Assembly (NCBI GenBank): GCA_026419785.1 | Contig: JAODTK010005613.1 | Span: forward strand, 103,012-167,011 | DNA length: 64,000 nucleotides | Origin: Sclerodactyla briareus | Taxonomy: Eukaryota; Echinodermata; Holothuroidea; Dendrochirotida; Sclerodactylidae | Direction: 5' to 3' | Part shown: in pieces, positions 13,210-60,236 of the stretch | How positions within the stretch are numbered: position 1 is the first letter of the stretch | Layout of the letters: every line of letters begins with the position of its first letter | Made by a program: the position numbers and the translations under genes | Notes under the pieces: model-generated | What the model was told of the DNA's origin: nothing | Databases searched by the model: none | What the model saw: the letters and a program-made list of their open reading frames with translations, nothing else

Positions 13210-13478
13210 TCTGAATATACCCATATATGGCTTGTTGTATAGGTGTATATGGCTCACCCATACCCATAACTTGGGCTATATCTGGATTTTAAATCTGGAC
13301 CATATCTGGCCCATATCCATTGACCACCCTGCTCGGGTCATGATGTTACTTTATATGGCCATATAAAGTTTTAGATGTGCCCAGATAGGAGGCTTTTGCC
13401 ATATATAACCTGATACTGTTATCACGTTATATATCTGCCAAATCTGAAGTCAACCCATAGATGGTTGTATATGGCCAG
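13210..13478. repeat. recently duplicated block in satellite B, copy 2
   Basis: Partner of 12,297-12,563. It shares private variants such as CTTGTTGTATAGGTG and GACCACCCTGCTCGGG. Confidence 0.85.
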
Positions 13479-14622: not shown

Positions 14623-14925
14623 GTAAGGTAATCACCTCATAACCTCAGGAAAACGACCAGGACTCGACCCGACTCCATTCGCCCTTCTGAGGAATACCCA
14701 CCACGCTGCGCCAACCAAGAGATACGGGGGCCACCCAAGCAGACGACCCTCTCCACCCGGTCACAGCAAGAAGACACTGTGGACAGTATCGTCGGCTATT
14801 GAAATGGCACGCCATATGACTGGAAAGCGCAGCGGGACGTCACGAATTAGGCAATGACCGCAACTGTTTCCCGAATCCAGGAGAACTCTGAGAACCAGAA
14901 CGCCCAAAGGCTTCGGATCATTGAC
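14623..14925. other. no feature recognised
   Basis: Higher-GC unique segment right after the satellite. No recognised motif. Confidence 0.4.
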
Positions 14926-28173: not shown

Positions 28174-28225
28174 AGGGGGTGGGGGGGGGGGGGGGGGGTG
28201 GGGGGGGGGGGGGGGGGGGGGGGGG
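28174..28225. repeat. poly-G tract
   Basis: About 52 bases, almost all G with a few T; a potential G-quadruplex. Confidence 0.95.
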
Positions 28226-28852: not shown

Positions 28853-29897
28853 TAGAAATAAAGTAGCCACGCTACTTAAACAGAGCCTTTTGTGAATCCA
28901 AATGTTTCACAGCTGGCTGAATAGATGGAGTGCACCGAACAACGAACTTATGTGAACTTGAGATGGCGCTTTCTATTTCCGTCGGTCTGGACGGTTGTTT
29001 TGTGCAACAGCCCCTATTTTTCGACGGGAACAGAAAATAATAGTTCATGCCTATAAATCAATTAATTTTTCACTTCACTTAGCGTAGACCGACGTTGTCG
29101 CCAGAGACCTACTGCTGATTTTCCACAGGGGGGTGTCCACCGCCCCCACCCCCCGTATTTTCGTCGGCCCCTGATTCCACTGCTCTGTTGTAATTTTGCA
29201 GTCTGTTGCAAGTTTTCTACGTTCTTTTCTCTTAGGCACACGCACCGCCCCGGGCCCTAACACTCACCGGTTTGTACGCGACGATATTCTTTTTTGTGTA
29301 ACACTGGTCAGAAATAGTAATCCCTAGTCTGTAGAATAAATAACATGTTTATAAAATGAGGGATCACTTCCCAATGGTGGCGCCCGCTCAATGGTCACTT
29401 TGAATTGCGTTCACTTCTCATTTCCCCTCCCACCACCCCACCCCCCACACACTTTTCGAAACATATCGACGCTCCCTGCCTTGCAGGAATGCATTTCCCG
29501 TATATTGGTGAAACCTCCAAACCCCCCGCCGCCTCCGCCCCCCTCCACTACTAACCCCTACTTCGACCTACCCGCGCACTCATTCATCAGAGTCAGATAT
29601 CGCGGTACCATTCGAAGTCGATCGCGGGTGCTTCTGTGCTTTATGGGGAGGTGAAGCCATTTGTTTACAAGTCCGATCAGCTGTTTACTATGAACTAGAA
29701 TACACAACTGTCCCAAAGGCGACTGCTGATTGGATCATTCAACAGCATTTTGATCCCAGCTAGCTCCAGACAGAACAACGTACTCCAGTCCTACTCGACT
29801 GACTCTGACTCCGAGCAATATTCATTTGCTTTTCAACTGGTTGTAAAACTCTGGAAGAAGATCAATTTTTGACTGCATCTTCTCGAGAGGATCTATA

Positions 29898-29938
29898 ATG
29901 AACCTCATAAGTCTAGTGGAAAATGTCCAAATCTCGCC
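29898..29938 (+). CDS. UBE2S: UBE2S exon 1 (tentative)
   Basis: An ATG at 29,898 opens MNLISLVENVQISP, which resembles the usual N-terminus MNSNVENLSP of UBE2S if one or two bases are wrong. A GT follows at 29,939 (CC|GTGGGA), a usable but weak donor, and the expected final Gln codon is not visible. The segment upstream has an ATTGG (inverted CCAAT box) at about 29,729. The assignment depends on position and a short similarity. Confidence 0.4.
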
Positions 29939-32900
29939 GTGGGAGCAGAGCCTGATTTAGATCGGCTGACTATGCAACGTTAGGCTATGCCTAAGCTTGG
30001 CTGTGCTAACACAGGCCTACCACCGTAGGCTACACTGACGTTATTTTATACTAGTACAATCGTGAGTCTATGGGCTAAGGGAACAATATTAATAGCAAAA
30101 GCAAAGAAAACAATTTGCGAAATGGACGAAACCCTACCAGAATCTTCCCCTCATCTTCGTCTCCCTTCATGATATTTTGTCTCAAGGAATAAATCTTCCG
30201 AGGCAAAAGAGGTTCAAAAATATATGGCAGAATTCACAAGCATCAGCTTCCGATCGTGGGGTTTGATCACCATAACAGGAAAAAAAACAAAAAAATTTCC
30301 TCCTTATCAACACGCAACTCTGCCAAACATTTCGAACTCTGTTACCTGCAATACCAAACTAAAAAACAGTCTTGTAAACTATCCAGGGAAATAGAACATG
30401 AAAACACATTTTCTTGTTCTTTCTGCGATTTCTGGCAGGGTGATTCAGCCACTTAAAAAAACACCAAAATCCTCCAGTCCAAGGGTTAAATTTTGTTCTC
30501 CACGAAATAGGAACCATGGATGATAAATTGTTTTTTGATGCTCTAAATAGATAATCCTATCGCCCGGATGTTTTTGAATCGGGTGATATTCACACGCAGT
30601 ACATAGCGCACGTTTACTCTCCAAAAAGGACGCGCTGATCGACTCACAATCGGTCACTATACTGTACAACTTTACAACTACCGACAGTACTATCAGGGCC
30701 ATTCCACCCTCCCCAGGTTGGGGGCACATTGGATATTTAGGCACAGTCAAAGCATATGGAAAATCACTTGTCAAATTAGACATGAATGGTAGCTCAAAAC
30801 ACATTTAGGCCCACTATGTGATGATCGAAAGGAATGACCACGATTCAACAATCCTGGATACGCGCAAAATTCCCACCACACTCACACTCTCGGAATATCG
30901 GCCTTGAGTCAAGGCTGACTGGATGTTTTACTAGGTTAAACCAGAGCTGAACCATGTACAAGGTCCGTGGGACAGTTTTTTTGTGACTTCGCTTATCAAA
31001 CTTCAGATAAGTTCACGTACCATTTTCTTCCAGTCGGCACTAGAGCCTAGAGGGAAATATTCCCTCACTATTTGCAAAAAGATGTCAAAAATTGCAATCG
31101 CATGCTGAACAACGTAGTAATTCGACTTTAAAATCTAGGATCAGCCCTTCGCGTGGTAACAAATAGCAATGGGCCACCGTGCGTACACGCACTGACGTAA
31201 CGGCGAATCCGGAATATATCCCGGTAGGCAACGTGCGAAAACCTAGCGGCACATATACATGTACATCCGGTTTGCAATCAATCCCATCCACTACCTGGTA
31301 GGCTGGCACCCATGCAGCGATCCATAACCGGGCAGTACCACCTTCCCAATAATAGTATACCAGAATATCCAACTTTACCCATACTCCATTTTTTCTTTCC
31401 ACGAACAAAAATTGCCATCGCATGCTGAAACCGGAGTAATTCGATCTTAAAAGCTTCGGATAAGCCCTTCAGCTGTAACAAATAAGCAATGGGCCACCGT
31501 GCGTACAACTCACTGACTTACAGCGATCCGTGTAATTGTCCGTAGGCAACGTGCGAAACCTCGGGGCCCATATACATTGTAACAACGGTTGCAATCAATC
31601 CATCCACTTACTCGGTAGGCTGGCAACCCATGCAGCCATCCATCCTGTGCCGTACCAACCCTCCTAATGATAGATACCAGAATATTCCAACTTTACCATA
31701 CTCATTTTCCCACAAACTGTGATCTGTGGCGTAATTCTGAAGGGCATGTTGATCTACATGTATTGTAAATAGTCCAAGTTCCCACTCTACTTGCACAGTG
31801 TAAGCACCTTGTAATTGTCCTTGGCATTGAAGTTGACCGTATTTATGGATCCTCCTGCCCACTGAGCACATACAACCAGCGTCCGAAAAACAGGGGGGCG
31901 GAGGGCGAATTCGCCTCCGAAAGTTAAAAAAGAGCTCTCGAAATCAATAAGGGGCGAAAAATATCAATAATTGGAAAATCGCCCCTGAAAAAATCTTTAT
32001 TTGGCATTGTATGTACAAGCAAAAAGCGATTCTGATTTCGCGCGCCAAATACCAAATGGAAATGTTTCTGATTTCTGTGAATTACCATCCGTTCAGTTAG
32101 ACCACTGTTTCATTAAAAATCACGTACATCGATTGAAATATTCCAGTGAGTCACCCACATGGTTGGACTTCAATTTAAACCTCCCACTGCGCTGCACCCA
32201 CTCATATTATATAAACGTACGTATGTTCAACTCGCAAGCGACGCAGTGCGCGGTGGGCTGCTCATGATCGACAACGATCGACTGCGTCGAGTCACTTCGA
32301 GTCATTAATACCCACTTCACCAAAACAAGTTGTTCAGTAATGTTCTCAAATGTAGTTGGGATTTCTTACATATTTTTAATCGAACACTGCCCGAAACATG
32401 TGAAATTGTTAGAATTCCTTGCAAGAAGGTATGATACCTGATACAAGCTGATTTATGCCAAATCAAACCTAAAAAACAACCCAATTAAATGCAAATTATG
32501 ATCACAAATTTTGGAAGATTGCTTGGGTGGCCTAATGTTCAATTTGCCTATGCTACAGCGTGTAGTTTTTTGGATACACGTTTTTTCGAGCTTGATTTTT
32601 TGTTGATCGGTAGCGATCAATTCCCCCTTGTCAACGCTCCAAGACATGTACAATATGACAGGATTTTACACAAGAACACGTTTCTTTCTGTCCCTCCAGA
32701 AACAAGATATAAATGAATTATTGAGTGGAAATCTCACCAAGCGGACTAAGAAATAATTAGTTAATTTGGGAGTATCTAGTTTGGGGATTGCTAGGCTGAG
32801 TTCCGCAGTAGTTAGGATACACGGTTTCGCAAACTTGATTTTGTGATCGTATCTATCAATTTTCTCACTTGTCACCTCCAAGTCATGTACAATATGACAG

Positions 32901-35900
32901 ATTAGCACATGACATGTTTACTCCTCACTTCAAAACAGAATATAATTGATTTTGAGTGAAAATCTTTACCGAGGCCGAACCTGTAGAATTAAATGGGTTT
33001 ATATTTGGGAGTTCTAGGTTTGGGAGGTCTGGGCTGCAGTAATCCGTGAAATTACACAACAAGCAGCAGTGCCTTACTCCTCTCGGCCCTACTCACTCCA
33101 CATGTGAGGTCACTGGCCTAACAATCATGATAAAAACCTGCAGCAAAACGCCATTTACAGCCTGTAGCTAGCTCACTTCGCACGAGAGGCTCTTGCTCTA
33201 TATGGGGGGGGGGCGGGGGCATTCATGGGCCCCAGTTGCCCCAAAGTTGAGAAATCAAACTGGGAGGGCCTTTTCGTTGTTCTCCATGGATTGCCACCCA
33301 TGCGCTACAACTAACACTGTATGCGGGCACCTGTTTTTTTATCATTACCATAATTATTAGGAAGCAACTCTGAAATACACCCAAATTATTGAGAGGGGCA
33401 ATTTTTTCTGGAAACAAATACACCAAATCGGGAAGTATTTCACGAACCACTGACACGAACCTTTGTTTTTTTCGTCGATTTATAGTGTAACATTGCATGT
33501 TGCATGCCTGACGAGAGGACCACATGATCCTGGAAGCCAGTCCCCCTCCGCAGAACGCTTCTCTCCAAATAACCCAGCCTCTGGGGAAGAGACAAATTTC
33601 CTACGCCTCCTTACTGAAGGCTCATTCTAAGTGACTCACCACAGTGGCATTATGCACTTCCATGCAGTTTCATAGCCCATTTTGAGGGTTTATATTTCGA
33701 GCAAATTATTGTTTATTCAAGTAGGCCCCCGAAAGCTCTCAAGTAGCCCCCGAAAAATTTTTTGGGTGGGCGAATTTTTTTCAAAATAGCCCCCGCAATT
33801 GAAAAACGTATTTTCGTACCCGATATCATCATTCCTTGGCTACGACACGACGTCTCATGTCGTATCGATGTATCAATGTAAACGTAATATCGAGCTGCTC
33901 ATTGATTAGGACGCTAAATTGCTAATTTGTATTAAGACCCTGAGATATTCGGTAGGATCAGTCACTGTAATGCAGCATCATTGCCACTTGTACTGTTGCA
34001 CCGTTAATCTGCTCTCGTAGTGCTCGTGTCTCCATTTTATTTATTTGGATTATTTTTTGCTTGACGCAGTGTTGAGCTCAAAGTCCGGTCTCGTTCTCTG
34101 AGACTGTCTCGTATACTGGTCTCAGACCGATTTTGAAGGACTCTCGCTCGGGAAATCCAATGACTCGGACTTGCTGCTGTGACGTCGGCCTGAGTCGCCT
34201 GTTTAAAACCGCTCAAAGAAATCGCTGTGCAAACATACCTTAAAATGATGGAAGAAGAATATTCCAAATGTCTAACATTGACATTGAAAATCAGAATACC
34301 GGCGACGTAAAAACTAGCTGGGTGGCTGGGGGAATGCGTTATTTATTCTGGTACACACCTCGCGGAACCATTTGAACTATTAATTGTACAAAAGCCAAGT
34401 TCATTGACATAAGACCGTGGAGCGCGTGCTCTGTGTGGAATCGGTCCATGCTAGGCAAAGTTGGTCACTGCAACACAGGAGAACAGCCGCACGGTCCTGC
34501 GAAGACAGTGAATTGTGATGTTCTTGAATGCATGAAAAAAAAACTTCTTGTCTGAAAAACTATTATCGTCTCGAATGAATGATAGTCGGCAGGCGAGAGC
34601 CTACGTAGGGTTATATGGATTGTGTGGGTCATTTGTTTCGTAATTTTGGCATTTCAAGGCTATGAACTTCCTTCATGAGCGTGCACACTTGATAGGAATG
34701 TGGGAAACTTCACTATAAATTTTCATCGGGCTGATTTTCAATATTATCATATACGTTTTCGGGCTAGCAGCATCTAACTTGTAATACCTAGGTATTTTGG
34801 AATCCAATACAGGACCTGTTGTTATTTTGTTCTTTTTGCTAAAATGCCAATTTTTAATAGGGACCGGACAAAGGACTGACTCGGACTTGGATTGTTGAGG
34901 ACTCGTCTTGGACTCGACTCGGATGCTGAGGACTCGGTCCTTGGACGCGGACTCGGGTTGGCTGGACTCGACTCCAACAGCTGCTTTGGAAGTCGAAAAA
35001 GCTTTTGGACACAATAGTGTGCAACGAAATGATTAGAACCTGAGAGTCATACTTGGCACAAGGGGCGGCCCATTTGGAGTAGGCTGTAGCTAGCGTTTGG
35101 AATAGTGCTGGACACTTGTGTAGCCATTTGGAGGCATCGTGGAAAACTGTATGCTGTCCATATTTTGTGTACAACGACTGCTATGACATCCAAAATTTGT
35201 AGGCAATCCTCGCTCATTTGAGGAGCATTTCCGATGGTGTAATCAGCTTTTTCGAACGCTGGCTGTAGCCTGTACATGTTGACGATCCGTCCTGTTTGGA
35301 GTCATTCAAAGTCAACTATGGTCACACGTATGAATCATAATGTAGGCAAAAGAACTGTGAAAGTGGATTGTACTGTAGATAGTCATACTCGGCAGGAAGG
35401 GTTACCATGGAGTAGTTGATCCCTATTCTTTTTCGCTCCGAGGACTGACCATCCAGTCCATCCCTTGACCCCATCCTCCCTTGTCATTACTGGTACGAGT
35501 TCCCAAGTGCTCATTTCTTACGTGTCTCTCGGGTATGATCTAGCTGGGGTTTAATTATTATTGGGACCTAATGTTTGGCTAATCCTCTTCAGAACAATTT
35601 TCATGTGTCGTTACTGTGTTACAAGATTCATTAAGTCGGCCAATGACCAGGAGACGTAAGTTACACTTTGAGCTCTTGGTCCCCTAGTAGGTTGGAACCA
35701 GGAACCGTTTTTTACAGAACCAGGATACACTTTTGTAAAATTATTATTACTTTAGTCTTATGATTCGTTTGATAGTGTATGACAAAACATGACATTAATC
35801 CAGATGAATAAGCGTAGGCCTACCATTCTACCACCATCTATGTCACTCATTGGCTCACTGTGTCACCAGTATTTTCTGCAGGCAGTTCTAGTTGCATCAC

Positions 35901-38900
35901 TTGATGAATAGATAAGTTGTTTTCGGTTTTCTCTTTTATTCACTCACTGTATCTTGTTTAGTGTCTGAATTGGTCAATCCCCCCCCCCACGTAAAAAAAT
36001 TATGGCATGCTTGCTGCGGCAGAGGGTCAACCTAGTCAAGCGCCCGCAAGGGTTCAACCTGGATACTGCAGTAACTGCAGTGTACTGCACTTTATTGACA
36101 GGCCCATTTTATGAGCTTTTCAACCAATGGATCTCCTCCCCACAAGCTTCAACCGATTTTATTCAACGTTACATGTATGGTCCTTGTGTAGTGTCCCATT
36201 GGGTTTGTTCATAAGTTTGGTGTGCCCTAGGGCCCATCATATGAGATACCGCAAAACCTTTGTATCTCCTACAAATCTGGTTGCACCATGCTGATGTTTG
36301 GGCATATTGATATTTGTCTAATCTGTACCTTCAGGTCCCCGGGATTCGGGACGTCACAGCCCAGTGGTGGGCTCGAGGGCCCATCAGTGGATTTATGCAA
36401 AATGCTTCTCCTCTTACAAGTTTTGGTGCACAATACTGACATTATTTCATATGATGGTCTATTAACGACTACCTTCAGGGTGTTTCAGGAATTGTTTTTA
36501 AACAAGGTCCACTTGGTCCTGAGGGCCCATTTTCATGAATTCATAGAAATTCGCACATTGGTACTCCCAATGCATCTCCTTCCACAATTCAATTGATTTT
36601 CTCTAATGTCACATGCAACCTCTTGGTTAGTGCATAGAGTTTTTGATGCACAGGTCGTGCTGTTGTTCAGTCATAATGACAGTCTATAATAGCTGTATCG
36701 TCAGGGTTCTCAGGAATTTGACTTGGGCCCAGCTTGGGCCTGAGGGCAGCCTATCATGTGTCAATCATGCCACATGTTATTCCGCAAAAATGGCTATTGA
36801 ATTGGATCAACAAAATGACAATAGAAAAATGTAATTCATATACGTGTACAGTTTACAAAGTAGTTGTGTGTTATTCAAACCTATTAAAGATTTGTCCACA
36901 AATTCTTGTTTTCTTCTGATTGCACTTGAGCTCCATGTTGAAACCTCTCACCAACAGGTCTGCGGGCCCGTAGCCAAGGAGGTGGGGAACTTGGCGAAAA
37001 AACCACTGGAGTAGTGAAGGTGTTCCCTAATGGAAGAATCACGACAACAGGCTACAGTAGAGGGGCCAGGTACATCTACATGTATTACACAGATAGTTTC
37101 AGTACATGAATCGTGTATTTTTATTCTAGTATTTATTTAGTGCCCTGCCAAGCATAATAATGAAATAAATACTTAAATTTATGAAAAGCGCCTTTCCAAG
37201 AAGATACAAAGGGCCTGGAGGACAAACAATACACAATAAAAAACAGCACGAAAATTAATAATTTATAAGTGTCTTTTTGAGGTCCTCTTGAAAGAAGCAA
37301 CCGCTGTATAGTTGACACTTAAGCTGGGCGCACACTGACAAGAATTACCATGAACTACACAATCACCTGTGGCCTCTATGATGAGAGCAGTCCCTATAGA
37401 CACCAGGGTTAGCGCTACTCGGGGTCTCAGGGTCAATGACTCTTGTTGGGCCTGTTTGGACCCCCAAAATAAGGTTTCTGCCTATTATGGGGGTCCAAAA
37501 TTCCATGAAAAGTAGTACAATCTTCTTCAATTCCTTGCATTTTGGCTCATTCACATGTGACATTTGTGCCTTGGACCCCGAAATGTCGAGCCAGCGCTTA
37601 CCCTTATAGACACGATCTGCTGGTAGAGTATTTTAAGTACTTGTAGATGCTTTGAGAGGTTTAGTTGTCGTTCAGATTCAAGGAAAAGAAGTCTTACAAG
37701 AGCCAGCTACTGTACAGCCATGAAGCTGTCCTGATATCAATCTTCTTGGAGGTACATGGGGCAATTGACCGCAGAAAAAGCTTTACAGAAGAGGTTACAG
37801 CAGACAACGCCTGTCAATCACTGTGAAACTGCAAAATTGTTTCTGCTGACCCACTCTCCCTTGGTCAACAGCTGCATGCATGTGGCCCAATACATTAGTT
37901 TGACCTTTACTTTATTCCCGTCAATGACATGTGTGTAAAGTACTGTACCTTTATTGTCGGTATTCCAGATGATTGGTACACTGTACATGCACAGCACTGT
38001 AACTGTCTGCGTGGAAGGGTCGTTAAATTAATTTGGGGGCGAGGGTTTTCTGGTGCCTAGGCTTACTGGCCGGGTTGTTAATAGTAAGCATCGCAGTGGG
38101 AGGTCTGGCAAGGTCAACAATGGCGATGTATATGTTAGCCAGCTGTCTTTTCCTGTGCTAATGTTCAAAGTATCCAACAAGTTTAATGAGTTTTCAGATT
38201 TTATTCCAGTAACGCAAGCCTGACTTCAATTGGTATTACAGAGTCGATGGTTGCACAGTGTATTTCCACAGCCGAAGTTTCACCTTCCTGGTTTATGTTT
38301 GTTATATCTAGGCAAATCGGACGGCTCTCGGCATGGTGGTGGAGTTTGTTTGTAATGTGAGGTCTGACTTTGAATGTTTTGGAGAAGCCGATATTGTGTG
38401 ATTTTTGTCAACTCCGTTTGGGGTGTGAAATCCGTCTACTCTCTGTATTTCCAGTTCTTTTAGTTGCGTTGTGTACCGTTCTCCAAATAGCTCTGAGACA
38501 GACAACTCTCTTTCTTTTACAGACAAAATGCTTTTCGAAGCTTTCTAGGGGGTGAGGAAGTACAATCATTCTGGGTGATTTCAATTATCGAGATATTTCT
38601 TGGTCTATGGTACGAGTGTCAGTCATGGATCTGGCTTTTTCAAGTCCAAGGATTGCTTCTTTCCAATCTGTACATTTTCCCTACCAGATGCATATTATTT
38701 TGGATTTAGTCTTTGAGGCAGTGATCCAGAATCTGTAGTAATTAGAGAGCTTGGTAGCTCGGTGCAAGTGATCACGAAATTTTAACTTTCAATGTGTCTT
38801 GTTCCTTCATATCCCCCAGAGTGTAGAGCTTGTTCCTTGTTTCGCGAAGGCCAATGTCGATGGCCTTTCTAGATTTTTAGCGAAATAGATTGCGTAAATT

Positions 38901-41900
38901 GTTAGAAAGTACGAATGCTGTTGACCTCTTGGAAGGTTCCCTTGAACAGGTTCCAGGTTTTGAAAGTTTACGTTCCTTGGAAGAAACATCGCAGTAAGGG
39001 AACAATATGCCTCTTGGATGAATAGGGAGTTTTCCTGGCCATCAACGTAAGCCGAACATTTATGGCGACTTATTGTTCTTCTGGGCGTGTCTGATCTAGA
39101 GCATTTCAAAGTTCAGCAAAAAAGCTGTCCAGCTTTTCATTACTGTGCTAACTTGATTTTGAAGCAGATTTCCTCTAAATCAAGGAGATCGGCGGGCAAT
39201 TTTTCTCTTAGGTGAGGGGGAAGCAGAAGTTCAGGAAGCATTGGCCTTTGATAGATTCCGGCTCGGTAGTACATCAGGCGATAGCCAGGATATGGCTAAG
39301 GTTCTCCAAAATTATTTCTCTCTGTTGTAACTCATGAGTAACTTGGATAATTTTGGTGACTTACTTGTCGGGGTTTCTCTCTCCGCATGTATTGGTAATA
39401 AGGTGTGCTCGCCTGGTTTGTAAAGGAGAAACTGCAGAAGCTCAACAGTGGTAAAGCTCCTGTCCTGAACGGAGTTTATCCTTTCTTACTGAAATCCTTT
39501 GCCGACGGTTTTGTCTGTTCCATTAGCTATTATTTTCAATAAGACTCTCCAAGAAGGTATTGTTCCGGATGATTGAGGAGAGCAAATGTTCTCCTTTTTC
39601 AAGAAAGGGTAAATGGTCTCGTCCTTGTATACAAACAGCGTCATCCTTACTAGTTGTTTTGTCTGCAAGGTAATGGCATCAATCATTCGGGATCATAATG
39701 GTTTGATTATTTCAATGAGCATAGTCTGATTAGGATTCTCAGCATGGGTTTCAGGTACAACCGTTCGTGTTTGACTAATCTTCGGAATTTATGGGAAGAT
39801 GTTACATTCGGTTGACACCAGCAATGCGTTGATATATTTTCCTGGACTTTCATAGAAAGCTTGTTGAAAGGTTCCTCATGAGCGTCTCTTGCTCAAGATG
39901 GAAGCTTGGCATTGAGGGGAATTTCCTGAAGTGGGATCGTGAGTGGCGTCATAATAGGGCACAACGCGATTGTCATATTTGCGTTCGTCTTCTTGGCAAA
40001 CGGTCCCTATTGGTGTTCCCCAGGGATCGGTTCTCGGGCCGTTACTCTTGCTGGGGTATATTGACGATTTTGAAGTTTCTGTTCATTCCAGTGTTAAGAA
40101 GTTCGCAGACAATACCACTTTGAATCGGATGTCGGTTCGACAATGATGATTCTGAAATTGTTCAAAGTGATCTGGATTATAAATTTTCCAAATGGTCTTC
40201 CGCTGCAAAATGTTTTTTCATGTCGACAAGTGCAAAGTATGCAGTTGGTTTCACAATCGCCACTCTTCCTCAAGTTAATGTCAAAAATTTCTGAAGTGTG
40301 ATTTCAGAAAAAGATCTTGGGGTTTTGTTTTGATTCTTCTTTTAACCTCCTAGCAGTGTGCCGAAGCTGCCTAGAAGGGTAATTGGATTCCTTGTCTTGA
40401 TTAGTCGTCACTTCAGTTTCCTTGATATGATATTGTTGTCCGGCTGTTTAAGCAACTGGTGAGACCGCACCTGGAATATTCTGTACAGTGTGGAATCCCT
40501 AACTTTGCAAAAGACAAGCATGTAATTGAAAACGTTCAAGCGTAGGTCCCTAGAAGATTGACTGTCTGAAAAATTTATCCTACCAAGGAATATATAAGGC
40601 GTCTCGTCCCTAACTACCATGGGCTAAGGCGATTCGGGTGACGTATCCCAAGCAGTGATCCAATAGTGGGAAATTGTCTTCTGAAAATGTTGTTCTCTCT
40701 AAGCGTGTGAATGCATTCAAGAAAGTCTTGATTTATTTTTCAGAAATCACGGGCGAATTATTCAGTGGTTTGTTCTTTTTCTTTCCTCCTGGGATTTTTG
40801 GCTTCCGTGGTCTTTATTGAGGATTTTTGTCCTTCCGGGACCCTATTCACTAAACTAAACAAACAACTGTATAACTGCAATACCCGTAAACCGCACCCAT
40901 TTTGATGTTTGCCGTACTGATGCTGCTACGTTAGTGCTGTATCATAATAAGTAATTCTCACTGGTCTCGGCTTTCATCTGGGGACGCCCTACGCTGGTGG
41001 CTACTTCAAGATCAGGCTATGCTGGGCAAGGACTTCCCAAGGGTTCCACCTAAGGCTACTCTTCCTCACAAAAGTCTTCCCCCCAAACGTGGCAGCCATG
41101 GAGAGATCTGTGTCAACACCTTGACAGAGACTGGAAAGCTGATATGGGCCTTAAACAGCTCTTACTCGTGAGGCCTATATGAATAATCTGTGTACTTTCA
41201 TCGTACTGTTGCTGCATTTATCACTAATTAACATTACAATCTGATCTGTATCACTGATGAAGTGATGACAAAACGATGGCTATTAAAGGATCCTTGTACA
41301 AACCATTCAATCAAGGGTTTTCCCTGCATTTTGATGCCAATCAACACAATACCATCCAGGGATGTAGCTAGGGTGGGCAGGGCCACCCGGCACTTGGGTG
41401 GTGTGCCCGTCACCCGACATAATCCCGGCAATGCTGCCCGCATTACAAAAAACAATGTTCTTGTTTCGTTAGTAATGGGATACAGTATACTGATAATGCA
41501 CAATCCACACTGGGAAAACCGCATTATATATTAAATGTACAAATAGCCAAATGGCCCTCCATTGGGCCTGTGGTCCAGTCGTGACCCGCTGCTCATTGCA
41601 CGCTACAATATACTATCCGTCACTAATCTCAAGGATTTCGGATGCAAATCCCCAGCACTCAGAATTCTTCTCTAGCTCATCCCTGATACCATAACCACTT
41701 CATCTCTTCTCAACTTCCCTGATTACGGTTGAGTGGAGGGTTCCTAATCATGCAAGGCAATGGATACCCTATTTCTTGATCAATTGCACTCCGTACCTTC
41801 ACACACTAGCCGGTTGAAACAGGCTTTGACTTCGTTCACCTCGCATCAGCCTCCTTCACTCATATATGCGCAGGCCAGGATGACATTCTAACCAATCAGT

Positions 41901-44900
41901 GCTTTGCCTAAAACAACGCCTGTGCACTTCCGTTCCCTCGCTGTCGAACTGATTTAACTGAATTATGGGTGGGGCGAAGTCCCAAACGTTGATTGTGCAA
42001 TCGACCATTTCCTTTTCCCCTTTTTCCCTAAATTAAGGGAAACGCCCATACCCTGCAAAAAATCCACTCCATGATCTGATCGGAATTGTTCTGCCCACCC
42101 CCAACCTCCTTTTGACATACGATGAATCGATATTCTTTTCTTATTTCCAATTCAAATTATTCCACTTTTTTCTGTTCTGAACTCGAGCTGCACCCAACAA
42201 GTCCGTCAATTATCGCCTGCGCGAAAACGTCGGCTTCGATCATTTTAGGCTTTCATATGCAGCATTCTTCAATTTCAATAGATTTCTCATTATCGGTATT
42301 GTAAAAAGGTTATTGTTTCTGCCTGTAAATATTCATGACTAAAATGTGGAAGCGCTTTTCCATGGAATTCCAATCCAGGGTTTTGCTCCCCCATATCAAC
42401 GCCTGTGTGCTACTCTTGATGACTGACATTATATATTAAATGTCCACAAAAAGCCAAATGGCCCTCTTGTGATTGACCGTGGGCTACAGTCGTGACCCAC
42501 TGCGCATCGCACGCTAGACTGCCCGCCACTAATCTTCAAAGGATTCGGATGCAGAATACCCAGCACTCAGAATCTCTAGCTACATCCCTGATACCATACC
42601 AATTCGATTTCATCTCCACTCCCCTGGCTTAACTGTTGAGTGGGAGGGGTCCTAATCATTCAGTCAATGATAACCCTTTTTCTTGATCAATTGCAACTCC
42701 TTACCTTCACACACTAGAAGCCTGTTGAAACAGGCTTTTGACTTGGTTCACTTTGTATCAGCCTCGTTCACTCATATATGCGCAGGCCAGATGACATTCT
42801 AACCAATCAGTGATTTGCCCTACAAAACAGCCTGTGGCAATTTTCGTTCGCTGCTGTCGAACTGATTTTAAAAACTGAAAATTTGGTGGTCGAGGTCCAA
42901 CGTTGATTGTGCAATCGACCTTTCCCTTTTCCCTAAATTAACGGGAAACAAGCCATACCTGCAATAAAAATCACTCCATTGATCTGATTTGGATGTTCTG
43001 ACAACACCCCCAACCTAATTTTTGAGACGTACGATGAAATCGATAGTCTTTTCTATTTCCATTTCAAATGATCCAATTTTTCTGACTGAGCTGCAACACC
43101 AAACAAGTCGCAATTATGCGCCTGCGCAGAAAACGGCGGCTTCGATTCATTTTAGCTATATGACATAATTCTTCAATTTCAATAGATTTAAGTAGCGGTA
43201 TTGTAAAAGGTTATTGATTGTCTTCTGTAAATATTCATGACTAAAATGTGGAGCGATTTATTTTCCACGGAATTCATCCAGGGTGGATCCAACCATATCA
43301 CGCCTGTGTGGCTACGATGACTGAATCTACGTCCCTGAAGGGTAATGAGCAGAATCCCAATTTTGGCGGGGATTTGTCGAACAACAAGTCAATCGCACAG
43401 AGGATAGTTGGTACATTCGGACCATGGTTATGCTGAAGAGTGATAGCCCCCTCTATTTAGGAACGGCTTCCTCATACCGTTTGCTTTGATAGCAGGCTAT
43501 TACGCCACTGCTTATCAATGGAGCGAGATAGTGGCTGTTTGTGTGGTCAATCAGCTATGAAATGGACTTTCTTACTCAATCCACGGTATGGGAGTTATTC
43601 GCGACTTTATATTACACTACGGATAGTGGACTACACTAACACCCATTGTTTCCATTTGGGGACTTCCCTCTTGCTATACACCCCACCACCCCTAACATGA
43701 TCATCTCACACCTGCTGGTCGCCCACAGCCTGATTATAATTTAACACAGAATACAGACAAAAACCACATTCAGGTAAATTCAATTCTGTTAGTCATTGAT
43801 TCGAGCTGGCCAATAGGTTAAAGATATTATGGTTTTTAGCTCAAGTCAGCTATGCTGGTTGAGCTATGGGAATCTGCTTTGTCACTCTATCTTTCTATCT
43901 CTCTATCTTCTATCTATCTATTATCTACTCTGTCTGTCTGTCTGTCCAACTGTGTAAACAAGGCTTTTGGCCCTGAACAGTCATTCTGTGATGATTGTTG
44001 ACCAAACGTGGACACATGTTCCGTGACCATGGGACATGTCTTACCTTGTGAAGGTCAAGTCAAAGGTAACTTAAGGTCAATATATAGCTATTATGTGTAA
44101 AATTTCAAAAGTATCTCCTCCTACAAATTCGTGGTACACAGTGCTGATGTTTGGTCATATGATGGTCTATTCAGATGTACCTTCGGGTGTTCAGGATTGA
44201 CCAAAGGTCCACTTTGGCTTGAGGGGGGGGGGGGGGGGCCCATTTATTGAAATTTCACACAATGGTACTCGAAATGCAACTCCTCCCAAAAGCTTCATGT
44301 AGTTTCTCAAAGTGACTGTACGTTCTTGGGTAGAGGGCCATTGGGGGTGTTCAGGATTTTGGGCCCAGGGCCACTTTGGGCCATAGGGCCCATTATGTGA
44401 AAACCGCCAAATTTGTATCTCCTGCAAATTGTAGTTGCACAGGATGAGTTCGTGGCCAAAATGATGGGCTAATAGCCCTTTACCCTTTTGTGTGTTCAGG
44501 ACTATGGTTCAAGGTCCGACTTGAGCCAAGGGCCCAATTTATATATTCTCACACAATGGTGCTTGAATGAAATGAATATCCTCCCACAAGCTCCAATTGA
44601 TTTCTTCAACGTTACATTGTTAATGGTCATATGGTTCTTGGTAGAGGGCCATTGATTTTAGGACTTTTGGGCTCAAGGCCCAGTTGGGCCTAAGGGCCAA
44701 TTTATGAAATACCGCAAAATCTTGTATCTCCTACAAATTTAGTTTAAAATAATTTATAAGATGGCAAATAGTCGTACCTTCAGGGTGCCCAGAATTAGGA
44801 CCAAGGCCCAGTGCGGGCCCGATGGCCCATCATGTGGATCATGCAAAAATGCTCCTCCTCTTAACCAAGTTGTGGGCACAGTGCTGACATTCTGTCATAA

Positions 44901-47900
44901 TTGATGGTCTAATAGTCGTACCTCTGGGGTGGGTTCAGAATTTTTTTAATTCCAGGTATGCCGATGGGCCCATTTTAAAATTCCATGGAGGAATTCACCA
45001 CATGGGTACTTGAATGGCATCTCTTCCCACAGTTCACTTGATGATTGAGTGCGGGTATTTGAATTCATGTAATACTCTTGTTAAGGTTTTATCAGGGGTG
45101 TGTTTGCGACCTCTGGCTAAAGGGCCCAAGTTGGCCTAGGGCTCCTCATGTTAAATACGCACAAATGTATCTACAAATTTTGGATGCACAAGTCAGTGTT
45201 GATGTTCGGTCACAATGACGGTCTAATAGCTTTACCTTCGGGTTCTCAGGGAATTTTGAACTTGAGACCCAGTGTCAGCCCGAGGGCCCATAATGTGCAA
45301 TCACGTAAAAGGCTTCGCTTCCTCATATGTGGTGAACAGTGCTGATGTGCGATCATATTGATGGAATAGCCATACCTCAACAGGCCTTTCAAGAATTTTT
45401 GGTCCGAGGAATCCCACTAAATGGAGCCATACAGCCTAGCTACGCTATCAACAATGCCCTTTTCGGCCCCGACAGCTCATCTGTGACGGATGTCGACCGA
45501 AACTTGGAACCAATGTTAATTGACCCATGAGGACTGTTTGACTTTGTGAAGGTCAGGGTCCAAGTCATTAAAGGGGCAATATAGGTCATATGTGTATAAT
45601 TTCCAAATGTACATGCTATCTTCTACAAAGTAATATAGATTGTCTTGAAACTTGTGTAGGTGTAATAATGTTCTCTTACAGCTGGTTGCAGATTTTGGAT
45701 TGCAACATCATCTAGTTTCATTGAATTAAAACAGTAGCATTTTGATGAAAAGAAACACACAGTCATTCTTCGATGGATGCTAATCAAACTTGTGGACCCA
45801 ACGTTCATCGATCTTTTGGCCATCTTTGACCATGTGAAGGTCAAGGTCAAATTGGGGTCAAAGGTAATCAAAGGGACACAATAGGCACTTTGTGAAATGC
45901 CTTTGTCTCTCTCAAGTGTCATTCTTGATGGACGTTGACCCCCGGACTGAGTACAATGTTATTAACTGACTATAAATCCGTGCATATGAAGATCAGTCAA
46001 AAGTTGTTACAGCTGCACAATATGCCATTGTTGAAACTGCCTTCTTGGTCTCATGACTTGAACATTTAACACACTTGTGCAGTTTGGCAGTTGAGCTACA
46101 GCCCCATTGGTGCTCTAGTTTTTTTTTATATTTGGTGTCACAATTTGACGCTCTTGGCTGTCATACAAATTAATTAAAAACGGCATACTGTACCAGGTCG
46201 GGTAGGTTGGGGAGAAAAAATGTTCCACCACACGTCACTGGGAGATCGGATGAATCATATACATTAGTGTACTGTGAACCCATGATCCTCTAGTCAATCT
46301 TAACATACTGGATTGTTTTTTTTTTTTCCACATCACTATTATGGGCAGTCGGAACATTTAACGCCCATTTTTCTCATACCCCTCAAATTAGCGAATAATA
46401 AGTTCAGAATGTTGTCCTTCAAGCCTAGATGTACCATACTTTTAACCATTCCCCCCTGTTTGCTCTTCAAAACAATTCAAATTACTTCTAATGCCCTACC
46501 CCCCAAAATCCCTTATTTTCCTCACCTTAACAAAGTTCAGGAGAGACTTACCGTCACTTGGCTGCGTTTTCGTTATCGACTGTTTAGTGTAGAATGTCTT
46601 TAGCCACATTATTGTGATTGGCGGACGAGTCATGTGACACCCTTAAATCATCTAACAGAGCTAACTCCCAAGAGACTGATAGCTAAGGCCACACACCCCG
46701 TCGCCCACTGCTAGCACTGATTTGTATACAAAATACGTCCCCTTGACCACACAGCTATTAACTTGATCACTGCCCTATTGCGTTCAGTCATGCAAAATTA
46801 CATATCTATCACTACAGTTGACTAAAAACACCCCTGTGTGTGTTTGTGATTATACATTTTTTTTATGATATGGTGTCCCCCCACTTTCTCTTCTCGTTAA
46901 GCAGGATTTCTGCTCCGTAACGAAGGCCAATTCGATGAAATTTTGTATTTAGTAATCGGGCTGTGGAACGATCTGATTTTGATTTTGGGGCGCGAAAGTC
47001 CTAATTTCAGTAGGGTAATTAGCCTTTCTATGTATTTATGGTTAGGCTCATTATCAAGATTATGGATGAACCGAGGTTGCATGGGGGATTAGTTCAGGCA
47101 CATAGGTGCAGGATAAAAGTCGATAACGTAGCTATAACCATTGGATTTTTAAAAACAAAAACGAAAAAGATGCTTATTAAGTTGTCTCATTTGCATTATT
47201 TATGCAAAATTCCAAGTTCATCAGAGTTCCCCGACCTTGGTGAATATGGTATACTTTCCGTCTCAAAACTTTTCACAAAGATTTGGGGTCAATATATTTC
47301 ATGAAACTGATGGTATGGTCACCGTCGTTCCAAACTTTTTATCAAGGATTCAGAGTCCACTATAGGTCAATGCCAGTGTGTCTAATTTGCATAATTTAAA
47401 TTAGCCAGAGTTCATCACTGTGTAGTTATGGCTTACCTTCACTCCCCAAAATTTTTACTTAGACTGGAAGTCTTCAATGGTGTCTATTTTGGCTTAATTT
47501 ATTCCAAATTTCCAGTCTGTTCGATTTTTTTTTAACTTGACGAAGTCAGAGAATCTATTTCAGTCACTCGTTTGTGTGTGTGTTTTGTGTGTTGTGGGTG
47601 TTTGATGCCCAGCTTGTAACAGATAACTTTGAAATCAAGTCTGGTGGAAGGTCGCTCATCCTTGGTATGTGGGTGTTCCTCCTCATGATGAGTAAATGAA
47701 CCCTATTGTTTTTTGTGTCAGGTTATAGGTCATCTGAGGTCCCAGGGGTCAAAGTCTTACAAACCTTGTAAAGACATAGTACAGAATTGGTTCGTCTGAT
47801 CAAGTTGCAAATTGGGTGTATAGCTTTCCTTATGGGGATACTGAACCCTGTTGTTGTTTTTTTTGGTTCAGGTCGGGAGTGAATTTTGGTCGAAAATAGG

Positions 47901-50627
47901 AAAATTTGTGAAAATTTCGATATTTCGGCCATTTTGGCTTGTAAACACGATAACTACTCGATCCCCACCCGGATGGATGAAGCTCATAACTTTGGTATTG
48001 TGTTCCCCATGAAATGAGTGTCATGACCCTTTTTGTTTTGGGGGTCCGTCAGAGGTCACCAGAGGTCAAGTCCTGAAACCTTGTAAACACGATAAGTCCA
48101 TATGGTTGGTCTGATCATTGAAATTAGTGTATAGCTTTTTATTGGGAATCAGGAACCCTATTGTTTTTTTTTTGGTTCAGGTCGGGGTGAATTTTGGTCC
48201 GAAATAAAAATTTGTGGAAATTCCATATTTTGGCCATTTTTGCTTGTAAACAAAACGATAACCCTCCGATCCCACCTGGATGGATAGCGCATCTTGGTAA
48301 TGTGTGTTCCCCCATGATTATTACATGAACCCTCTTGTTTTGGGGTCAGGTCATCGGACATCTGAGGTCACCAAGAGTCAAAGTCTGAAAACCTTTAAAC
48401 CACGTAGTCCAGAATAGTTTGTCCGCTCAAGTTGAAATCAGGTGTATAGCTTCTTATGGGGAGTGCAAGTACCCTAATGTTTCTGGTCAGTCTGAGGATG
48501 AATTTGGCCGAAAAGAGAAACTTGTGAAAAGTTTTATATTTTGGCCAATTTTGACTTGTAAACACGATAACTCGACCCCACCCGGATGGATTAAGCTCAT
48601 ACTTGTATTGTGGTATGTGTGTTCCCCATGATGAGTACATGCAACCCTATTGTTTGGGGTCAGGTCAGAGGTCATCTAAGGTCACCAAGGTCAAAGTCCT
48701 GACCACCTGAAACACGATAAGTTCATATTGTTTGGTCTGATCAGTTGAAAATCAGGTAAAGCTTTCTGAATATACAGGACGCTATTTGTTTTTTTTGGTT
48801 CAGGTCAGGAGTGAATTTTGGTCGAAAATGGAAAATTTTGCCATTTTGGCTTGTAAACGCACGATAACTTTGACCCACCTGGATGGTTAGGCTTATACTT
48901 GGTATGTTTGTTCCCCAGGATGATTATTGAACCCAATTGTTTTGGGGTCATGTCACATAAGTTCTAGAACGGTTGTCTGATCAGGTTGAAATTAGGTGTG
49001 TATTGTTCTTATGGGGAGTACTAAACCCTATTGTTCCATTGGAAGGGCGGGTGAATGAGGCTCATACTTAGTTTGTTTATGTTCCCCAAATGAGTGCATG
49101 AACCTAGTGTTTTTGGGGTCAGGTCCGGAGGCATCTAATGGTCGCCATAGGTCCAAGTCTGAAAACTTGAAATTTTAGTGTGTAGCTTTCTCACCAAGGG
49201 TACAGGAACCCTATTAGTTGGTTTGGAAAGATAGGAATTTGTCAGACGTTATGTTTGCCTATAATGAGCTGGTACTATCTCCCATTTGTCCGTGTTTCTG
49301 GTTATGGGTTTACAGAAACAGTCCAGGAATCACTTAAGTTTTGGCTTTCTGGTTAAAAAACTTGATGGGTAGTTCCATCTTTAGTCCCCCCCCCCAAATG
49401 TTACATGACTCAAGTCACTGGGGGTTATTCAGTGAGTATAACTTCTTCATTCATGCAATTTTCAAGTTTGTTTGGATTCTCATGCAATGCATTCATTTTG
49501 TGTCCACCATTGGTCCTGAAGTATTTGAATGAGAATGTGTGTCAATGGAAGTTTACTGTTTGTCTAATTTGCATAATTCCAGGCATTTCAGTCATATTGT
49601 TCCCCAACTTACACTCCTCTGGTAGGCTTGGTCAATAAGCAGGGAGCGATCTTCATGAATTGGTCACTACCTCACTGATTGGGAGTACGGCTTTTTCTGT
49701 TTTCGCTCTTACATTACAAAATCTGAAGAACACTGATCGCGCAACCAGGCGAGACATTGGGTGCTCATAAAAGTGAAGACCCTCCGCTGAATTAGCTGCT
49801 ATTTTTATGTGTTAAAGTAATTCTGTCTTTGCTCTAAAAGATGCTCTCCTCAATTTCCCCATTCTAATTGCCACCTGATGAGGTTTGTAAATCCCTTGAG
49901 AACATAGAATTGTCTTTCCCCTTAATTGTCCTTTCCTTTTCCGTCGGAGTTTTTTTAAGTGACCCAGTAATGTACAGTATATTTGTTTTTATAAAATCGC
50001 TATGGCGGTACTAAAAGACAAAACATTAGCCTCCTATAGCCTAATCTTGATTCCACATACGTTGTTAAATTTGAATTCAATATTCCCTATTAAATTTATG
50101 GAGGCCCCCATATAATTGGGGAGTCACACCCCCATGTCCCCCACCCAATTGCGTCCCCTGCCCATTGTTTCCTCTTGCTGTTTCAATTAACAAATCTCAT
50201 TTCGCTGAATTACTGTATACAGTACTGGACCACCCCTTAATTTTGTGGAGTGAATGAAGCTGGTTAAACTGCCAGGTGTTACTAATTAGTACTATTATTA
50301 ATTAGTATTGTGCAAATCCTTTTGCCTTTCAGACAATAAAAGTTTGCTTCATCTACCCCCAATGGAGAGAGTCCGCCCTAAACGAGGGAGGCAGGTAAAC
50401 TTTCTACTGAACAAGATGAAGCTACTTCTCGAGAGCAAAAGATGAGATGACCAGAATTCATGCGATTGTGGCAAGTCCAGCAAGGAGTAGAGAGTGAGAC
50501 CCTGCAGTTCCCGTCAGGCTCGAACACACTTAGGAGCAGCGTCTAGAAGGCATGCAGGCGAAAAGAAACAGTCTGCCATTGACAAGAGAAAAAAAGGGAC
50601 CAGAAGACGAACCTCAAGAGATTATGA
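29898..50627 (+). CDS. UBE2S: UBE2S gene (ubiquitin-conjugating enzyme E2 S), four exons
   Basis: UBE2S is the E2 that elongates Lys11-linked ubiquitin chains on substrates of the anaphase-promoting complex, so it acts in mitotic exit in nucleus and cytoplasm. The exons read VAKEVGNLAKKPLE / KVFPN / QATVEGP (exon 2), GTPYAGGYFKIRL / LGKDFPRVPPK / GEICVNTL / RDWKADMGLKQLLL (exon 3), and ESALNE, KLLLEQDE, HAGEKKQSAIDKRKK, LKRL-stop (exon 4). The catalytic Cys is kept, and the C-terminal LKRL corresponds to the LRRL tail that docks on the APC/C in vertebrates. Intron positions after EGP and after LLL match my recollection of the human gene. Each exon needs several one-base frame shifts to be read through. 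Since splice sites and residues are intact, I infer base-calling error, but a recent unitary pseudogene cannot be excluded. Introns are about 7.0, 3.9 and 9.2 kb. Confidence 0.9.
30460..31080. other. UBE2S intron 1, no further feature
   Basis: A 119-codon minus-strand frame (30,445-30,804) lies here antisense to the gene. It has no recognised domain and its start and end lack splice context, so I do not call it a gene. Confidence 0.35.
31088..31712. repeat. two-copy tandem duplication (~320 bp) in intron 1
   Basis: Copies at about 31,088-31,404 and 31,407-31,712 share ATCGCATGCTGAA, AGCAATGGGCCACCGTGCG, GGCAACGTGCGAAA, GCAATCAATC and AGTTGG/CCAACTTTACC segments. Minus-strand frames in both (for example YYWEGGTA, YQVVDGIDCKPD) are partly parallel, so a duplicated exon is possible, but no family is recognised. 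Confidence 0.8.
32500..33060. repeat. tandem ~245-bp repeat in intron 1, two and a fraction copies
   Basis: Units start near 32,500, 32,755 and 33,000 (partial). Shared segments include GGATACACG, TGTACAATATGACAG, TGAGTGGAAATCT or TGAGTGAAAATCT, and TTTGGGAG.TCTAG.TTGGG. Confidence 0.75.
33061..36140. other. UBE2S intron 1, no gene; GACTCG-rich minisatellite at 34,860-34,985
   Basis: The 34,860-34,985 segment is an irregular array of GGACTCG and GACTCGACTC words; a related stretch lies at 34,073-34,200. Minus frames at 34,854-35,277 overlap in different frames and look faintly protein-like (MYRLQPAFEKADYTIG), but cannot be assigned. Confidence 0.45.
36150..36945. repeat. tandem units of the GAGGGCCCAT family, UBE2S intron 1
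   Basis: Recurrent segments CCTTCAGGGT or CTTCAGGTC, GAGGGCCCAT, TTGGTACTC..AATGCATCTCCT and GTTGCACCATGCTGATGTT mark two to three units. The same family forms the 44.1-45.5 kb block in intron 3. Confidence 0.75.
36958..37069 (+). CDS. UBE2S: UBE2S exon 2
   Basis: The acceptor CTCTCACCAACAG ends at 36,957 and the donor GGCCAG|GTACAT starts at 37,070. The reading VAKEVGNLAKKPLE, then KVFPN, then QATVEGP covers the first helix and first strands of the E2 fold. Three frames are needed; 112 bp are present where about 117 are expected, so net loss of bases is implied. Confidence 0.88.
37130..37335 (-). mobile_element. SINE-like 3' end
   Basis: On the minus strand CTTGGAAAGGCGCTTTTCAT is followed by AAATTTAAGTATTTATTTC, resembling the GGCGC...AAAT tail of the SINE at 9.7 kb. 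The tRNA-like head was not found, so this is probably truncated. Confidence 0.4.
37336..38025. other. UBE2S intron 2, no further feature
   Basis: Unique-looking sequence between the SINE tail and the LINE. Confidence 0.4.
38030..40860 (+). mobile_element. CR1/jockey-type LINE in UBE2S intron 2, sense orientation
   Basis: The endonuclease begins with NKFNEFSDFIPVTQ (about 38,175) and RHGGGV-like residues (about 38,325), followed by IILGDFNYRDISWS (about 38,565-38,606) and MHIILDLVFEA (about 38,690-38,722). The reverse transcriptase shows EKLQKLNSGKAP (about 39,427), a DW(R)RANV-like stretch (about 39,570), GVPQGSVLGPLLL (about 40,012-40,050), KKFADNTTLNRMS (about 40,098-40,130; FADN where FADD is usual) and LVRPHLEYSVQC (about 40,455-40,490). 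The 3' end has CCTTCCGGGACCCT and an AAACTAAACAAAC tail near 40,850. No ORF1 was seen. The frame changes repeatedly, as in UBE2S. The 5' end is approximate and no target-site duplication was identified. Confidence 0.92.
40981..41167 (+). CDS. UBE2S: UBE2S exon 3 with catalytic cysteine
   Basis: GTPYAGGYFKIRL, LGKDFPRVPPK, FLTKVF, PNVAA, GEICVNTL and RDWKADMGLKQLLL follow in family order over three frames. The active-site Cys codon is TGT at 41,109-41,111. The donor CTC|GTGAGG is at 41,168. A pyrimidine-rich stretch precedes the exon, but the expected AG reads TG (CATCTGGGGACG), probably another base error. The LINE ends about 120 bp upstream. Confidence 0.94.
41523..43322. repeat. 907-bp tandem segmental duplication in UBE2S intron 3
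   Basis: Copy 1 is about 41,523-42,429 and copy 2 about 42,430-43,322. Shared landmarks are ATTATATATTAAATGT, AGCCAAATGGCCCTC, CAGCACTCAGAAT, ATATATGCGCAGGCCAG, ATTCTAACCAATCAGTG, TTGATTGTGCAATCGACC, and TTCATGACTAAAATGTGGA near the end. Differences are mostly one- and two-base indels. Confidence 0.92.
43323..43840. other. UBE2S intron 3, no further feature
   Basis: Unique sequence. The 60-codon frames are unsupported. Confidence 0.4.
43845..46120. repeat. composite repeat block with GAGGGCCCAT tandem units
   Basis: The left edge has GGTTGAGCTATGGG, then a TCTA/CTGT microsatellite (about 43,888-43,948), then a CTTGTGAAGGTCAAG segment. About four to five units of the GAGGGCCCAT family follow (44.1-45.5 kb), then the CTTGTGAAGGTCA segment again (about 45,543 and 45,831). 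The right edge reads GTTGAGCTACAGCCCC...GGTGCTCTAG followed by a T-run. The paired outer segments suggest one mobile unit carrying a tandem array. Confidence 0.6.
46121..47680. other. UBE2S intron 3, no gene recognised
   Basis: A T-run lies at about 46,315. Weakly repeated segments around 47,220-47,520 share CAAAACTTTT and GGTCAAT words. Otherwise featureless. Confidence 0.4.
47690..49215. repeat. ~311-bp dimeric tandem array, reverse orientation of the AAAACAATAGGG family
   Basis: AACCCTATTGTTTTTTTTGG-type starts recur near 47,847, 48,156, 48,469 and 48,780. Each unit has two half-units: one with GGTTCAGGTCGGGAGTG...TTGTAAACACGATAAC, and one with GGGGTCAGGTCAGAGGTCAT...CAAAGTC. Units to the right are truncated. 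The reverse complement matches the copies at 3.4, 4.1 and 15 kb. Confidence 0.88.
49216..49640. repeat. diverged single copy related to the 52.4 kb array
   Basis: It shares ATAATGAGCTG, CTGGCTTTCTGGTTA and the AACCCTATT lead-in with the 425-bp units at 52.4-53.7 kb. Confidence 0.5.
49641..50332. other. end of UBE2S intron 3, no feature besides the acceptor
   Basis: The sequence ends with a good acceptor: TTTTGCCTTTCAG, AG at 50,331-50,332. Confidence 0.6.
50333..50627 (+). CDS. UBE2S: UBE2S exon 4 and stop
   Basis: The exon opens ACAATAAA (TIK), continuing phase 0 from exon 3, then reads an IYPN step, ESALNE, GKLLLEQDE and a MTEIHA-like step (GACCAGAATTCATGCG). A poorly conserved Ser/Pro linker follows, then HAGEKKQSAIDKRKK and finally NLKRL with TGA at 50,625-50,627. 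The Lys-rich tail and terminal L-K/R-R-L are UBE2S hallmarks needed for APC/C use in vertebrates. I count roughly eight one-base indels relative to a clean frame. Confidence 0.93.
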
Positions 50628-50822
50628 TAACTGCTAGAATGTAGGTAATTGAGAATTATGCAGGGTTTTGTGACTTTCAAACAGCAAAAGAATGTGAACT
50701 ACCTCCTATGATCCCATTCTGAAGCAGTCTGTGATCACAGCACTGAAGTAATGTCGGATCGTGGATCACACAGACCAAAATTGGAATAATAATTTCACAC
50801 ATCTGGACAGAACTTTTCTAAT

Positions 50823-50828
50823 AATAAA
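50823..50828 (+). terminator. poly(A) signal AATAAA for UBE2S
   Basis: First canonical AATAAA after the stop, about 196 bp downstream. Confidence 0.55.
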
Positions 50829-52414: not shown

Positions 52415-53711
52415 CAAGTTTGTATCATTACCATAATGAGCTGTGTCTTCAATAAACAAAGGATGATAAGAAAGACTCTAGGGATCATCACTTCATCATG
52501 GTCTTCTGGCTTTCTAGTTAGACGCAATATGGTTTGGCAAGAGGAAACACCCCCTTTATTCCTGAGGATGGTGCGTCAATCCAGCCTCTGTATTGTAAAT
52601 TTCTGCGATAGTCTCTCTTACATTGTTCAACTCTCCATTTCACTGTTAAATATCTGCATCCTTTGAGACAATTGACTGGTAATTAACCCAGGGAGAGGAA
52701 ACACTAAGCCTGCAGGTTTTTCATCTGGTGGGTGGCTTGGGGAGACTCCTCCCAGTAGTCGCCCACTCCCACTAATAACTACGTTACTCACACTCAGAGA
52801 GAAGGTACCAATGGATTATGGAAGGCGGTCACCCAGTACGAGAGAGGCACTTTACCACGAGACATTTTACCATAATGAGCTGTGTCTTCAATAACAAAGG
52901 TGATAAGAAAGGACTTATGGATCATCAATTCATCATGTCTTCTGGCTTTCTAGTTAGACGCAAATATTGTTTGGAAGAGGAACACCCCCTTTATTCCTGA
53001 GGATGGTGGTCAATCCATGACCTGTATCTGTAAATTTCTGGATATGTCTTTTACATTTGTCAACTTCCATTTCACTGTTAAATATCTTGCATCCTTTGAA
53101 GACAATTGACTTGTAATTACCCCAGTGAGGTAAACACTAAGCCTGCAGGTTTTTCATCTGTTGGGTGGCTTGGTGGGGAGACTCCTCCCAGTATCGACCA
53201 CTCTAACTTACCCGGTACTCAACAATTCAGAGAGAATGTACAAATGATAGGAAGGCGTCACCAGTACGAGAGAGAGGCACTTTACCACAGATCATTTTAC
53301 CATAATGGAGCGTGGTCTTCAATAACAAAGGTGATAAGAAATGACTCTTAGGGATCATCAATTCATCATGTCTTCTGGCTTTCTAGTTAGACGCAAATAT
53401 TGTTTGGAAAGAGGCTCCCCCCCTTTGTTCCTGGAGGATGTGGTCAATCCATGCCTCCTGTATGTAATTCTGGATATGTCTCTCTTACATTTGTCAACTT
53501 CCATTTCACTGTTAAATATCTTGCATCCTTTGAGAAAATGACTTGTAATTACCAGGTAGAGGAACCACTAAGCTGCAGGTTTTTCATCTTGTTGGGTGGC
53601 TTGGTGGGAGGACTCCTCCCAGTATCGCACACTCTAACTACTGTACTCAAACTGTCAGAGAGAAGTACCAAGATTATGAAGGCGGTCACCCAGTACGAGA
53701 GAGGCACTGAA
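52415..53711. repeat. tandem ~425-bp repeat, three copies
   Basis: Units start near 52,425, 52,867 and 53,293. Shared segments: ACCATAATGAGC, GTCTTCAATAA, GGGATCATCA, TTCTGGCTTTCTAGTTAGAC, AACTTCCATTTCACTG, CACTAAGCCTGCAGG, and CACCCAGTACGAGAGAGGC with variants. A half-unit of the 311-bp family (TTGAAAGTCAGTGTGTAGC) sits just upstream at about 52,360. Frames are accidental and parallel between copies. Confidence 0.92.
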
Positions 53712-59854: not shown

Positions 59855-60236
59855 AGAAGTGACACCACTCCCTGCTCCCGGGACGCAATTTTACGTCCCC
59901 ATCCGACGGACGATCAGTGAACTCCAGGACCGAACCACTTTCTCAGATCCTGGCGGAGCGGGGAAGATGTCGACGCGATTGCTCACCGCCGACCGACGAT
60001 ACCTAATGCAAGTGCCCCGAAACAACCCCACGAAAAACCAAGGCCCACTGTCAAAACAGCAGGACCAGGAACCTACGACCAGGAACACGCCAGTCGAAAT
60101 GCAAGAACAGCCACTTCTGGAAAAAAAAAGCCCGGTGTGTTGGTCGGCTGGAAATTTTGTTTCGAACCCGGACCCTGTTGCATGCGAAGCACAAGATACC
60201 GCTCTACTATTCTCCCGCTCCCAAGTTCCAAAATGA
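59855..60236 (-). mobile_element. probable tRNA-derived SINE, minus strand (tRNA-Ala-like head)
   Basis: On the minus strand a perfect A box (TAGTAGAGCGG, plus 60,199-60,209) is followed by an anticodon-like GTGCTTCGCATGCA and a near B box (GGGTTCGAAAC, plus about 60,160-60,171). The T-arm and acceptor cannot pair well, so it is not a tRNA gene. A plus-strand 125-codon frame lies over the body; its final part is simply the antisense of the tRNA-like head, which argues against a real protein. Confidence 0.5.

Follow-up and report, generated by a model that had tools for sequence, protein, structure and literature searches.

UBE2S is the E2 enzyme that depends on the APC/C and lengthens ubiquitin chains linked through Lys11. 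The role of its LRRL motif has been described (PMC5717348), and small insertions and deletions (indels) in long-read assemblies make intact genes resemble pseudogenes (PMC12007338). The window analyzed here, a 64-kb stretch of DNA (C2856:103012-167011) taken from an assembly of 319,486,128 bases in 3171 contigs, was originally predicted to carry a split, frame-disrupted UBE2S gene. We consider it very probable that the locus is a real, ordinary UBE2S orthologue, with at least three coding exons on the plus strand spread over 13.7 kb, and that the frame breaks are long-read error. As in UBE2S, the locus carries pieces of the UBC core with the GEICVN and TIK...ESALNEEAG regions, a lysine-rich tail, and an LKRL-stop resembling LRRL. 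Unlike UBE2S, it is frame-broken in the assembly, reads PPN for HPN, and lacks a first exon that we could find. The assembly shares small pseudogene-mimicking indels with the case in PMC12007338, but in the regions that we looked at several per cent of bases are affected, against less than 0.05% of the genome in the example given there.

To compare the window with UBE2S, we searched it by tblastn, using a human UBE2S sequence as the query, and aligned it with a purpose-written, frameshift-tolerant, protein-to-DNA aligner. By tblastn, the exon with the catalytic cysteine was matched in two frames at 41001-41123 (E 3e-7) and 40981-41097 (E 5e-6) and in a third frame at 41024-41167 (E 0.077), and the last exon gave a weak UBE2S match at 50333-50619 (E 0.024, two pieces combined). 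Matches in different frames indicate that the frame truly changes inside the Cys exon, in agreement with the earlier claim that identity is kept while the frame is repeatedly lost. With the frameshift-tolerant aligner, UBE2S residues 52-114 fell on 40981-41167 (score 226, 40/63 identical, 5 frameshifts) and residues 115-211 on 50333-50621 (score 93, 36/95 identical, 13 frameshifts). The best place for human UBE2S residues 1-51 in the whole window was 36926-37068 (score 84; next, 46; best of 8 shuffles, 51), which also ranked first with a second, approximate N-terminal query (score 105; next, 47; best of 8 shuffles, 54).

The score of the Cys exon compares with 66-80 in 8 shuffled windows and with 81 (reverse-complemented), 91 (reversed), and 77 (complemented) in altered versions of the window, so that this exon is secure. 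Score alone does not secure the last exon (93 versus 91 for the reversed window), but taken separately its UBC part scores 86 with 9 frameshifts, and its last 26 residues reach 57, where 200 shuffles of that stretch give at most 38. The catalytic cysteine lies in its GEICVN context in the exon at 40980-41167, and a lysine-rich extension ends in an LRRL-type motif, read as LKRL followed by a stop at 50613-50627. The position of the HPN motif in the Cys exon reads PPN, where a read error and a real change are indistinguishable. Both the tblastn search and the frameshift-tolerant alignment, which are of the kind suggested for 29-51 kb, matched UBE2S, and the proposed UBE2S core, catalytic Cys region, and LKRL tail were recovered as three collinear stretches separated by introns. 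In line with the original prediction, no open reading frame (ORF) of at least 100 amino acids covers the UBE2S exons.

A different E2 family member might occupy the locus instead, as UBE2D, UBE2N, UBE2T, and UBE2C score 91-124 on the Cys exon. However, UBE2S reaches 86, 226, and 93 on the three exons in turn, versus at most 47, 124, and 56 for UBE2D, UBE2C, UBE2T, and UBE2N; better similarity to another E2, which the original prediction had named as a result that would speak against it, was thus found on none of them. UBE2D as a tblastn query on the window also performed worse than UBE2S (best E 0.016). In a PDB sequence search with the open frame 41001-41123, the top six matches were all UBE2S (E ~3e-6), and the next E2 followed at 0.066. 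The UBC domain is closer to UBE2S than to other E2s both against these four E2s and against PDB sequences, and the LKRL tail is present as well, making another family member exceedingly unlikely.

The homology and the exon order are accompanied by splice edges at four of the five coding borders, namely, AG at 36929-36930, GT at 37070, GT at 41168, and CAG at 50330-50332 (Table 1). For the first of the three exons, the aligned stretch starts at 36926 and the exon start was set by the AG. No AG lies directly before the Cys exon at ~40980, so that the claim of matching splice sites throughout holds except at the 5′ edge of this exon. A processed UBE2S copy was rejected, as in the original prediction, because introns separate the collinear exons. 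The gene start placed at 29898 did not survive: the region 29850-30100 scores 30 and 18 with the two N-terminal queries, which is chance level, and detectable UBE2S coding sequence runs from ~36931 to 50627. No first exon with an ATG turned up when the window was scanned with a single pattern (ATGAA then GTRNG), which had 1 match, on the minus strand, versus 1.32 expected. Besides this unseen first exon, the gene would then comprise at least three coding exons, spread over 13.7 kb.

Table 1. Coordinates of the UBE2S exons and introns and of noncoding tandem repeats in the window
Feature	Position	Strand	Remarks
UBE2S exon, N-terminal half of UBC domain	36931..37069	+	Score 84; 9 frameshifts called
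UBE2S intron	37070..40979	+	Between two collinear exons; 3′ edge without visible AG
UBE2S exon with catalytic Cys (GEICVN)	~40980..41167	+	Score 226, tblastn E 3e-7; 5 frameshifts called
UBE2S intron	41168..50332	+	Holds tandem array 47663-48955
Last UBE2S exon: UBC C-terminal half (TIK...ESALNE), lysine-rich tail, LKRL-stop	50333..50627	+	Score 93; 13 frameshifts called
Noncoding tandem duplicate	31086..31708	.	24 substitutions, 28 gap events (26 of 1 nt, 2 of 2 nt)
Three-copy 433-nt tandem array	52428..53708	.	17-21 substitutions, 32-34 gap events per pair

Over the UBE2S exons, 27 frameshifts were called in 625 aligned nucleotides (nt), i.e., 0.043 per nt, which is an upper estimate. The aligner was calibrated on simulated genes at 65% identity, with 24 simulations per indel rate, and called 0.0086 frameshifts per nt at zero indels and 0.032, 0.038, and 0.043 at 4, 6, and 8% indels. 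When two clean UBE2Z exons of the same assembly were aligned with the divergent UBE2S query, the aligner made 5 calls over 174 nt and 2 over 165 nt, and a looser run allowed to extend made 10 in 290 nt. Since the aligner over-calls somewhat on divergent queries, the UBE2S density is best read as several per cent, and the 5 calls in 187 nt of the Cys exon taken alone are within the range of over-calling. The frame of UBE2S would be lost through small indels, mostly of one or two bases, that persist in the consensus at a rate of several per cent. These would be uncorrected long-read errors, at least in the region of the window, and the organism's own UBE2S gene would be intact.

The same breaks could be those of an unprocessed pseudogene, in which UBE2S decayed in the lineage either as the sole copy or as a duplicate; all three exons are frame-broken, and HPN reads PPN. 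Similar damage is nevertheless present in the histone genes of the assembly. A histone-profile search of the assembly yielded at least 7 matches, five of them on C1362 and C2362, two short contigs (15.9 and 11.3 kb) with tandem histone clusters containing H2A, H2B, H3, and H4. All 19 core histone genes detected on these contigs (11 on C1362 and 8 on C2362; score of at least 110, 4 overlapping H3 sub-alignments left out) are frame-broken, with 9-33 frameshifts each and 326 called in 7105 aligned nt, i.e., 0.046 per nt. Other matches of the histone profile, H3-like and of lower identity, had 9 calls in 297 nt (C2876) and 5 in 204 nt (C491). Comparing pairs of copies of the same histone without the protein aligner gave 0.089-0.099 gap events per column (0.045-0.049 per copy) and fewer substitutions (0.065-0.078 per column), and the length of the gaps was divisible by three in 82 of 1426 cases. 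A living eukaryote would not be expected to carry entire arrays of dead core histone genes, and the histone breaks are therefore read as assembly errors. The histone contigs may be worse than the contig of the window. With 0.043 per nt as an upper estimate for UBE2S versus 0.046 per nt for the histone genes, we found no disabling changes above the sequencing-error background.

Tandem repeats in the window served as another error gauge. Gap events outnumber substitutions in 8 of 11 repeat comparisons; the 11 stem from 7 repeats, of which 4 show this excess. Of the 285 gaps, 269 are 1-2 nt long. Indel damage is similar in the UBE2S exons, the histone genes, and noncoding repeats. Because the breaks in UBE2S are similar in kind and roughly equal in density to those in the histone genes and in most repeat comparisons, they are most likely an artefact, and the oddity implied by the original prediction, a split and frame-disrupted gene, most likely has no biological basis. 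Programmed frameshifting or RNA editing that restores the UBE2S frame would fit the high residue identity despite the lost frame, but it would have to act on many shifts in one small gene, and histone genes and noncoding repeats are similarly damaged; we give it next to no probability.

Parts of the assembly are accurate. Substitutions outnumber gap events in 3 of the 11 repeat comparisons (12, 32, and 3.6 kb), and two repeat pairs are near-identical (99%), at 12285-12469/13197-13381 (185 nt) and 8176-8338/8482-8644 (163 nt). Such identity is impossible for independently noisy copies and suggests local correction or an assembly duplicate. Outside the window, the E2 family profile (E up to 0.001) matched at least two places in the assembly, both on the minus strand of C2845, where two similar open UBE2Z-like exons lie 45 kb apart at ~167.4 kb and ~212.4 kb. 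Their reading frames stay open for 60 and 57 codons, and UBE2Z is their best PDB match (E 1.7e-22 and 1.1e-20), so the assembly is accurate there. Sequence quality is therefore uneven across the assembly, given the 99% repeat pairs, the substitution-rich comparisons, and the open UBE2Z exons. A UBE2S search of the assembly (E up to 10) returned 4 matches, which were the two UBE2Z exons and two overlapping frames of the window, the UBE2Z exons outscoring the window; no second UBE2S-like place was among them. The tallies of 2 E2-profile and 7 histone matches, both lower bounds, look small for 319 Mb, and we rest nothing on them.

Accurate places in the assembly and the missing second UBE2S-like place among these 4 matches both speak for a pseudogene. 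They are set against the similar damage in 19/19 detected histone genes on two contigs and in the majority of the window's repeat comparisons, and against the preservation of 4/5 splice edges, GEICVN, and the LKRL-stop tail. An unprocessed pseudogene is thus improbable. That the lineage truly lost UBE2S, the window holding a recently decayed only copy masked by extra sequencing noise, is very improbable. We retain an ordinary UBE2S gene in a noisy consensus as the preferred reading, and the orthologue would presumably be working, as UBE2S is elsewhere.

Other scans of the window returned little. The whole window gave no match in an Rfam scan (gathering thresholds) or a tRNA scan, and the DNA of the Cys exon had none in a plasmid collection. 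Among 9 window pieces searched with Pfam, one Cys-exon frame gave a sub-threshold UQ_con match (E 0.024, 14.7 bits, cut-off 27), and the second Cys-exon frame and six other pieces gave none. A Mediator match in a 125-aa ORF at 59859-60233 (E 0.008, 16.4 bits, cut-off 25.3) was also sub-threshold and was taken as chance. Stop-to-stop frames of at least 100 aa are in slight excess (52, where 20 Markov shuffles average 41.2 and reach at most 50); those of at least 150 aa number 3 versus 3.15 in the shuffles, and the longest is 188 versus a mean of 189. Long tandem arrays with units of 64 and ~200-230 nt, rich in GGCCATAT and CCAGATAT, occupy 7651-8680 and 10811-14640, and near-pure C and G runs are found at 1924-1960 (37 bases) and 28175-28225 (51 bases).

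Both UBE2S and frame-breaking long-read indels are already known, and what was found is most likely a normal gene seen through noise. Claims of pseudogenes, gene loss, or broken frames made from this unpolished assembly are unsafe, given that the histone genes themselves look broken in it. For the biology of the family, the gain is only one more UBE2S orthologue.
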